The notes beneath the pieces were generated by a model, which was not told where the DNA came from, did no database searches, and was given only the letters and a program-made list of their open reading frames with translations. This document shows positions 32,692-34,671 of a stretch of 64,000 nt of DNA, one piece after another. Source of the DNA: Bacteroidales bacterium (GTDB taxonomy: Bacteria; Bacteroidota; Bacteroidia; Bacteroidales; P3); assembly GCA_031257915.1 (NCBI GenBank), contig JAIRNR010000007.1, forward strand, positions 1-64,000. Reading direction: 5' to 3'. Each line of letters starts with the position of its first letter. The first letter of the stretch is position 1. Made by a program: the position numbers and the translations under genes.

Positions 32692-32700
32692 TACCTTTGC
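32692..32700 (+). promoter_or_regulatory. Promoter (TTG, 20 bp, TACCTTTGC) of the L13-S9-S2-EF-Ts block
   Basis: A clear -7 box, with TTG at 32669-32671 and a 20-base spacer, 30 bases before the rplM ATG. Confidence 0.6.
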
Positions 32701-33213: not shown

Positions 33214-33600
33214 ATGGAAGTAACCAATAGAACAGGAAGAAGAAAAACGGCTGTTGCCCGCGTATATCTCACAGTTGGCAATGGAAATATTTTAGTTAAC
33301 AAACGTGACTATAAAGAATATTTTCCCACAACAACGTTACAGTATGTAGTTACACAGGCATTTAATGTTGCAGGTGTAGCGGGTAAATATGATGTTAAAG
33401 CAAACCTTGGCGGCGGTGGAATTAAAGGGCAGGCAGAGGCGCTTCGTCTTGGTATTGCACGTGCGCTTGTTAGTATTGATGCCGAATACCAACCGGCATT
33501 AAAGGCTGAAGGTCTTCTGACTCGCGATTCGCGCATGGTGGAAAGAAAGAAGCCCGGACATCCGAAAGCGCGTAAGCGTTTCCAGTTCAGCAAACGTTAA
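33214..33600 (+). CDS. rpsI: 30S ribosomal protein S9 (uS9)
   Basis: A 128-residue small-subunit protein. It has TGRRKTAVARVYL at the N-terminus and the invariant C-terminal ERKKPGHPKARKRFQFSKR tail, whose terminal Lys-Arg reaches the P-site tRNA. It follows rplM by 27 bases, as in most bacteria. Confidence 0.97.
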   Translation: MEVTNRTGRRKTAVARVYLTVGNGNILVNKRDYKEYFPTTTLQYVVTQAFNVAGVAGKYDVKANLGGGGIKGQAEALRLGIARALVSIDAEYQPALKAEGLLTRDSRMVERKKPGHPKARKRFQFSKR

Positions 33601-33768
33601 TCGAAACATTGGATATTGTTTAGTATCTAAAATGGCGGGACTTCATAAAAAGAACTACCTGCCGTTTGAGTGTAACCGAAAGCGTAGGAGGAGCAAGGTG
33701 GCACTTTAACATGGAATGTAAACTCGGGGAAATTGAGAAAACGACGTACCCTTAAATTAAATAAAATT
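33601..33768 (+). promoter_or_regulatory. Candidate structured leader of rpsB
   Basis: This gap between rpsI and rpsB is less AT-rich than other gaps. It holds a six-pair stem (GGCGGG 33634-33639 with CCTGCC 33658-33663) and a second long-range pairing AGTG/CACT (33669-33672 and 33702-33705). The SD-like core AGGAGG at 33686-33691 lies inside the second loop. A 14-codon frame (MECKLGEIEKTTYP, 33711-33755) ends 13 bases before the rpsB ATG. S2 is known to repress its own operon in other bacteria, so an S2-binding leader is a reasonable inference. Confidence 0.4.
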
Positions 33769-34671
33769 ATGTCAGCAGTAACTTTTGACGAACTCTTGAA
33801 TGCCGGAGTGCATTTCGGTCATTTGAGAAGAAAATGGAATCCTAAAATGTCACCGTACATTTATTCTGAGAAAAATGGAATCCATATTATAAATCTTCAC
33901 CAAACAATTGAAAAATTAGATGAAGCATGTGCGGCTGCAAAACAAATTGCCAGGTCGGGTAAATTGATTTTGTTTATCGCAACGAAGAAACAGGCGCGTG
34001 CAATTATTGCCGAGCAAGCTAAACGTGTGGGAATGCCGTATGTTTCAGAGCGTTGGCCCGGTGGAATGCTTACGAACTTTGCAACTATTCGCAAAGCAGT
34101 AAAGAAAATGACCGGAATTGAGCAACTCATGAACGACAAGCAGTTTGAAGCATTATCCAAAAGGGAGCGTCTCCAAATTCAACGTGAAAAAGATAAGTTA
34201 GAAAAAAACTTGGGATCTATTGCCGACTTGCAGCGATTGCCAAGTGCGGTGTTTATCGTTGACATAAATAAAGAACATATCGCGGTTGATGAGGCACGCC
34301 GTCTTAATTTACCCATTATTGCGATTACCGATACGAACACAAACCCCGAACTTATAAGTTTTCCGATTCCCGGTAATGACGATGCTTCAAAATCAATAGA
34401 AGTTATTGTCGGAAAAATTACGGAGTCAATAGAAGAAGGCTTGCGCGAAAGAAAAGTTGAAAAGGAAAGTCACAAGGATGACGAAGATATTGAAAACGCA
34501 AAGAGCGAAGTTGATATTGACGAAGAGGGTGAAGATGTTGAAGTTACGGATATGGAAAAACGCAAGAAAAATACAGGCGATGGCGGCGAAGGTCGTCGCG
34601 ACCGCAGGCCGCGCCGTAACTCACAGGGGGGCGGCGGCAAATCGGGAGGCAATAAACCTTTTCGTAAATAA
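33769..34671 (+). CDS. rpsB: 30S ribosomal protein S2 (uS2) with charged C-terminal extension
   Basis: A 300-residue S2. The start MSAVTFDELLNAGVHFGHLRRKWNP is the family start, so the earlier in-frame codon at 33733 was not used. The conserved core ends near residue 232 (SIEVIVGKITESIEEGLRERK). It is followed by about 65 residues rich in Asp/Glu, then a Gly/Arg/Lys-rich end (GGGGKSGGNKPFRK), much longer than the S2 tail of model bacteria. It sits on the solvent side of the 30S subunit. It precedes tsf, the usual order. Confidence 0.96.
   Translation: MSAVTFDELLNAGVHFGHLRRKWNPKMSPYIYSEKNGIHIINLHQTIEKLDEACAAAKQIARSGKLILFIATKKQARAIIAEQAKRVGMPYVSERWPGGMLTNFATIRKAVKKMTGIEQLMNDKQFEALSKRERLQIQREKDKLEKNLGSIADLQRLPSAVFIVDINKEHIAVDEARRLNLPIIAITDTNTNPELISFPIPGNDDASKSIEVIVGKITESIEEGLRERKVEKESHKDDEDIENAKSEVDIDEEGEDVEVTDMEKRKKNTGDGGEGRRDRRPRRNSQGGGGKSGGNKPFRK

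Follow-up and report, generated by a model that had tools for sequence, protein, structure and literature searches.

Ribosomal protein S2 controls its own synthesis in Escherichia coli (accessible text of PMC2704228 and PMC10931766), and the RNA described upstream of its gene, the rpsB motif, is a three-stem junction with a pseudoknot that the accessible part of PMC2704228 reports from Proteobacteria, and also from Cyanobacteria and some Firmicutes. The protein (uS2) is essential, and its proposed roles related to the Shine-Dalgarno (SD) sequence do not explain this where SD pairing is unused (PMC10931766, in the text available). For Bacteroidia, S2 is not among the leaders named in the available part of a catalogue of 20 new ribosomal leaders, which includes L13 and S4 (PMC7247131), and rpsB is counted among the genes with an SD in certain members of this class in the accessible sections of PMC9976891. 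In the literature searched, supplements excepted and some papers being available in part, an rpsB leader of Bacteroidia was not found described; the unnamed candidates of PMC8040213 may include it. Here we report on 64,000 nucleotides (nt) of contig JAIRNR010000007.1 from a Bacteroidales bacterium, the whole stretch being called the window, in which the 168-nt gap between rpsI and rpsB (33601-33768) carries a conserved and strongly covarying RNA leader directly before rpsB.

The element shares with the rpsB motif its place as a structured RNA directly upstream of rpsB. The motif is built as a three-stem junction with a J2-3 pseudoknot, whereas the element consists of one hairpin (P2, continued by P2b) plus a short closing helix (P1), and only P1, P2 and P2b are supported. 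Judged by sequence comparison, it appears to be an rpsB leader structurally distinct from the published motif, with S2 as the likeliest ligand. The L13-Bacteroidia leader RF03127 (PMC7247131) belongs to the same operon (rplM and rpsI, plus rpsB in the table of that paper) and to the same bacterial class, but it sits further upstream, at 1593-1670 in locus L109 (Segatella maculosa DSM 19339), where it has no match to the present element. Unlike in L109, it was not found in the window with Rfam 15 at the gathering threshold. The SD-anti-SD autoregulation of bS21/rpsU (accessible text of PMC9976891) is again a case from Bacteroidia with a ribosomal protein gene and an AGGAGG-like sequence. In that system, however, the SD is that of the start codon and is used by ribosomes without bS21, whereas the AGGAGG of the present gap ends 77 nt upstream of the rpsB ATG and is not conserved. 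No SD was seen next to the rpsB start in the window leader.

Rfam 15 at gathering scores gave one tRNA only for the window and nothing on the leader. In eight relatives the hits at these scores were two SAM-II riboswitches and an L13-Bacteroidia leader, all of them away from the element; the SAM-II (long loop) riboswitches lie about 2 kilobases (kb) upstream of rpsB, at 766-825 in L106 and at 796-855 in L055 (minus strand). Permissive searches yielded three chance matches to other families in 33500-33900 (E values 2.1-4.4), one of which, to bxd_5, reaches nt 1-13 of the gap. In 20 relatives there were four such matches (E 4.6-8.1), with MIR7991 in L164 overlapping the leader; all of these were far below gathering scores. 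No rpsB-type family (we take t44/rpsB to be the Rfam name of the proteobacterial rpsB motif family) occurred among the matches at E ≤ 10 in 33500-33900 or in the 20 relatives.

The sequence-only reading of this DNA had suggested an S2-responsive leader with stems in the gap, an AGGAGG within a loop, which might sense ribosome assembly, and a 14-codon frame ending just before rpsB. The stems, the AGGAGG in its loop and the frame are all present. The segment 33608-33668 alone folds with a z-score of -4.82 (0 of 200 shuffles as good), and for the wider stretch 33601-33790 many shuffles match the fold (z -1.17, 19 of 200 equally good). In the predicted fold AGGAGG (33686-33691) is part of a 9-nt loop. 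The conserved element (33608-33667 plus 33714-33723) is what far exceeds chance expectation, not the AGGAGG or the frame. The leader itself thus held up, with a response to S2 as its likeliest function, and AGGAGG as its sensing core did not.

Leaders for comparison came from a protein search of public genomes (537 relatives, best 80 rpsB loci kept) and a second search of 61 relatives, in 55 of which rpsB was located; they were read from these loci and from extra regions. A simple core pattern was found in 111 of 137 loci, repeats counted. Parsing succeeded for 101 leaders and failed for 15 gaps, and 77 leaders were within length limits from which the window was exempt. After removal of L067, L078, L081, L139, L150, L165 and, deliberately, the window, 70 leaders were aligned with MAFFT (alignment A1); since these rows had been picked by GUUUA and GUAAAC patterns, P1 is invariant in A1 partly through selection. 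A second alignment, A2, holds 28 of 32 loci (L167-L196, L256 and L257, with L181, L187, which is the window, L189 and L195 omitted), mostly from outside the order. Its rows were found with R1, a covariance model built without the window, so that P2 there leans to the model; P1 pairing is not part of R1. L031, L112 and L166 are one genome and were counted once as a distinct gap.

Common to the leaders of relatives, when these are compared by eye, are GUUUAG-N-AUC-Y-AAA, a hairpin in which A[C/U] faces CUA, and GAAnGUAAAC, and the window carries every shared part, namely the joining strand, P2, the A[C/U]/CUA loop, GAAnGUAAAC and both P1 arms (Table 1). The covariation check across Bacteroidales rpsB leaders that the sequence-only reading had called for revealed strong covariation instead of free variation between relatives. 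For the whole structure, a putative helix P0 and P1 included, A1 contained 245 double-change cells against a shuffled mean of 62.5 (reached in 0 of 500 shuffles) and 25 to 64 in slid controls, and sliding the partners cut pairing from 87.7% to 25-43%. The ten pairs of P2 were formed in 96.4% of cells, eight of them having changed on both sides, and P2b was paired in 96.6%. Given A1 alone, RNAalifold returned P2 and P2b. In A2, P2 was paired in 96.4% of cells (both sides had changed in 8 of 10 pairs) and P2b in 90.2%; within the loop, the A-U pair 39:62 switches to G-C in 4 of 28 rows. The G-U wobbles in P2 fit an RNA transcribed from the rpsB strand.

P1 was predicted by RNAalifold on A2 unprompted. 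Together with three outer pairs it was paired in 86.6% of A2 cells, and each outer pair changes on both sides (16:103 as U-A, A-U and C-G; 15:104 as U-A, G-C and A-U; 14:105 likewise changing). In 152 distinct gaps P1 was GUUUA:UAAAC in 149, GUUCA:UGAAC in two and GUUUA:CAAAC in one. The compensated form belongs to L242 and L244, two GC-rich leaders in which P1 is GGGUUCA:UGAACCC, thus extended as well, and which the model scores poorly. The first pair outward of P1 could form in 88 of 152 gaps (63.3 shuffled, 0 of 5000 shuffles) and the second in 79 (67.3 shuffled, 40 of 5000). P0 itself, in which the flank upstream of GUUUA pairs with AGUAUCYAA, is stable in the window and would turn P1 into a pseudoknot. 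It showed no covariation and was not adopted except as an optional structure: at least five consecutive pairs were possible in 69 of 132 leaders versus 45.0 in mononucleotide shuffles and 68.6 with swapped flanks (150 of 300 swaps reach 69), and in fixed register 62.7% of A1 cells pair.

Table 1. Features of the rpsI-rpsB region in the window and the basis of their assignment
Feature	Position	Strand	Basis and remarks
rpsI (ribosomal protein S9), upstream gene	33214..33600	+	Open reading frame (ORF) call; tblastn query
P1 5' arm GUUUA	33618..33622	+	Pairs with 33719-33723; flanking pair T/T, unpaired in the window
Joining strand GUAUCUA	33623..33629	+	A1: G, A, U, C and last A invariant; positions 2 and 6 vary
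P2 5' strand	33630..33639	+	Partner 33658-33667; all 10 pairs standard in the window, two being G-U
Internal loop A[C/U] 33640-33641 and CUA 33655-33657, with variable terminal loop	33640..33657	+	A1, A2
P2b, 3 base pairs	33642-33644 with 33652-33654	+	A1, A2
P2 3' strand	33658..33667	+	A1, A2, pairing in the window
Linker of 46 nt with local stem and AGGAGG (33686-33691)	33668..33713	+	Fold, parsed leaders
GAAUGUAAAC; UAAAC 33719-33723 is the P1 3' arm	33714..33723	+	GAAnGUAAAC consensus in A1 and A2
14-codon frame MECKLGEIEKTTYP	33711..33755	+	Stop ends 13 nt before rpsB; start beside P1 3' arm
rpsB (ribosomal protein S2), putative target gene and ligand source	33769..34671	+	ORF call; tblastn

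Searched with R1, the 64-kb window gave a single match, at 33608-33683 (59.9 bits, E 8.4e-10). Because of the 46-nt linker the model sets its last positions on GAAAG..C, and the true GAAUGUAAAC is the one listed in Table 1. Among rpsB loci of relatives 50 of 55 were matched (21 of the 55 had supplied A1 rows), and in larger runs the element turned up in 143 of the 190 family genomes, in 182 of the 247 from the order, in 42 of the 295 from the class and in 17 of 148 in a phylum sample; these runs used strict filters by which weak matches are lost, and the samples overlap each other and A1. In the tables listed the element occurs once per genome, except in G532, G716 and G748 with two. The named carriers include, besides Segatella maculosa, a Butyricimonas record (L079). 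We inspected 62 matched loci, the best scorers from the class, order and phylum runs with the window included: all had rpsI upstream and rpsB downstream, and the match lay inside the gap in 60, starting 2 or 8 nt earlier in the other two. In a class sample, rpsB was present in 58 of 60 genomes and 29 rpsB loci were fetched. The element was absent from 22 of these 29 gaps (gap length 18-86 nt); the remaining seven comprised clear matches in L229, L233, L253 and L255, two GC-rich leaders (L242 and L244) and L254, whose P2 has changed. L242 scored only E 0.24, and a partial match in L231 (E 0.44) fell outside its 35-nt gap. Two leaders depart from the common form: L254 keeps GUUUAG...GUAAAC around a different P2 with the conserved loop gone, and in L154 P2 and its loop are kept with neither P1 arm seen.

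The P1 3' arm lies close to rpsB. Its distance to the start codon had a median of 15 nt (interquartile range 12-18) and was 0 to 23 nt in 150 of 152 gaps, so that pairing at this place would occlude the site where ribosomes land. In some genomes, e.g. L178 and L179, it directly adjoins the rpsB ATG (GUAAACAUG). In L176, L178 and L179 the arm runs into the start codon (GTAAACATG), and these are the clearest cases for a direct block of initiation. A start-stop AUG-UAA within GAAUGUAAAC was considered as well and rejected, as among the 152 gaps positions 4-5 are UG in 77, AG in 44, CG in 25, GG in four, UC in one and CA in one.

We consider it probable that the element is an rpsB leader through which S2 regulates its own synthesis by a block of rpsB initiation, in Bacteroidales and also in some further lineages of the class. 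Ribosomal protein leaders usually respond to a protein of their own operon, and the loop and joining strands, conserved as they are, have the look of a site for a protein. S2 as ligand, the direction of control and the translational mechanism are what we infer here: since the element tracks rpsB, and S2 represses rpsB-tsf (accessible text of PMC10931766), an S2-stabilised P1 is proposed as the block. In such a mechanism P2 with its A[C/U]/CUA loop would form and P1, GUUUA:UAAAC and often extended, would close it, placing its 3' arm a short way ahead of the rpsB start codon. Binding of free S2, perhaps together with S1, to the loop of P2 and to the conserved joining strands would stabilise P1, and the stabilised P1 would keep 30S subunits off the rpsB start. 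Once S2 is drawn into ribosomes, P1 would open and rpsB would be translated. If this is true, a compact Bacteroidota S2 operator would mean that control of rpsB recurs with an unrelated RNA; it would also offer a short RNA on which recognition by S2 can be studied, and reveal how repression operates where initiation is SD-independent. For automatic annotation, the element would close a gap in Rfam.

Several observations weigh against S2 autoregulation in this form. R1 had no match in 253 of 295 class genomes and 65 of 247 order genomes (the stricter filters applying), nor in 5 of 55 rpsB loci. The outer P1 pairs were unpaired in 5, 12 and 13 of the 28 A2 rows, and the third pair outward was at chance, with 53 of 151 gaps against 53.2 shuffled. 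The P1 of the window lies 45 nt before the rpsB start and lacks the flanking pair. A published Flavobacterium johnsoniae study tested bS21 with an rpsB reporter, and S2 control is not reported in the accessible part of it. Ribosomal protein leaders often, though not necessarily, resemble the site of their protein on ribosomal RNA (rRNA); resemblance to the 16S rRNA of this genome was not found by an R1 search or by a scan for the internal loop. Mimicry of 16S rRNA was accordingly dropped: the only R1 hit in the 16S locus L258 scored 3.9 bits (E 7.5) and fell beyond the 16S gene, the internal-loop scan was empty, and of six words tried in 16S only GUAUC and GUAAAC occur, both short enough for chance. 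Finally, with rpsI upstream at all 62 loci, gene order does not tell whether S2 or else S9 or L13 is the ligand.

The last point leads to the reading in which this cis element is read by another product of the operon, L13 or S9, and controls rpsB or, from their 3' side, the upstream genes. With rpsI directly upstream at every inspected locus, and an L13 leader already named for this operon in Bacteroidia (available part of PMC7247131), such a reading has some appeal, but we regard it as unlikely, as the P1 3' arm follows the rpsB start with the close spacing given above, and L109 possesses both the Rfam L13-Bacteroidia leader, about 1.3 kb upstream of rpsB, and the present element. We find it quite unlikely that the hairpin is a processing or stability structure of the messenger RNA, such as a ribonuclease (RNase) site between rpsI and rpsB, and not a protein-responsive switch: its location in an intercistronic gap and a ligand that is only inferred would fit, yet the joining strand, A[C/U]/CUA and GAAnG are strictly conserved although unpaired, and this together with the start-codon spacing exceeds the needs of a cleavage hairpin.

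The S2 leader proposed here has an unusual layout in the genus of the window. In 95 of 101 parsed leaders the linker measures 8-26 nt (median 11), and it has 46 nt in the window and 80 in L031, the sister genome (one other genome of the genus was compared). Longer linkers than 26 nt occurred in six of the 101, the window, L031, L049, L109, L117 and L156, the last four belonging to other genera. P1 is 154 nt from the rpsB start in the sister, and with this distance and that in the window a P1 block of rpsB must be indirect or weakened in this genus. The AGGAGG, which lies in the linker here, occurs in 3 of 188 distinct gaps and equally in 3 of the 152 that have the element, two of the three being upstream of P1, and the linker of the sister has GGCGGAG. 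Across the window the hexamer was counted 14 times with 8.87 expected, 5 of 100 shuffles having as many, and about 0.012 is expected per 168 nt of one strand. At its distance from the rpsB start it is too far for an SD. The 14-codon frame has no matching start in the sister genome and is probably fortuitous. Compared across leaders, AGGAGG and this frame thus appear as local extras, incidental and not the core of the element.

A second frame, MAGLHKKNYLPFECNRKRRRSKVAL at 33632-33709, overlaps P2, reads AGGAGG as two arginine codons, looks fortuitous and has no matching start in the sister genome either. The sister itself has a 35-codon frame, MKIVACTRQDICVRVSYGVSKVIYKHTINIRKSEI (2875-2982), between P1 and rpsB, ending 18 nt before rpsB. 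As short frames thus lie between P1 and rpsB in both genomes of the genus, a relay by translational coupling was entertained, in which translation of the 14-codon frame, starting at P1 and ending 13 nt before rpsB, would pass ribosomes on. That inserted sequence has split an S2 operator from the rpsB start in this genus, with the short upstream frame relaying control and the SD-like stretch of the linker biasing the switch via free-anti-SD ribosomes, seems to us very improbable. Hardly credible is the idea, taken from the sequence-only reading, that AGGAGG with a short frame senses free-anti-SD ribosomes: the hexamer sits in a predicted loop with a GTG 6 nt further that opens a 3-codon frame (33698-33709), the 16S 3' end carries CCTCCTTT, and SD use in F. 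johnsoniae is restricted to special ribosomes (accessible text of PMC9976891), but the rarity of AGGAGG among gaps, its position upstream of P1 in two of the three, its replacement in the sister and the missing frame start there all oppose it.

A terminator formed by P2 and a U-rich tail was judged unlikely, P2 being AU-rich in many relatives and P1 not competing with P2. A promoter inside the gap was likewise rejected. The -7 box of Bacteroidota promoters is TAnnTTTG, and a scan of the window letters found no such word in 33560-33769. TACCTTTG at 32692-32699, about 30 nt upstream of rplM, fits this consensus; with one match before rplM and none in the rpsI-rpsB gap, rplM, rpsI and rpsB may share a single promoter.
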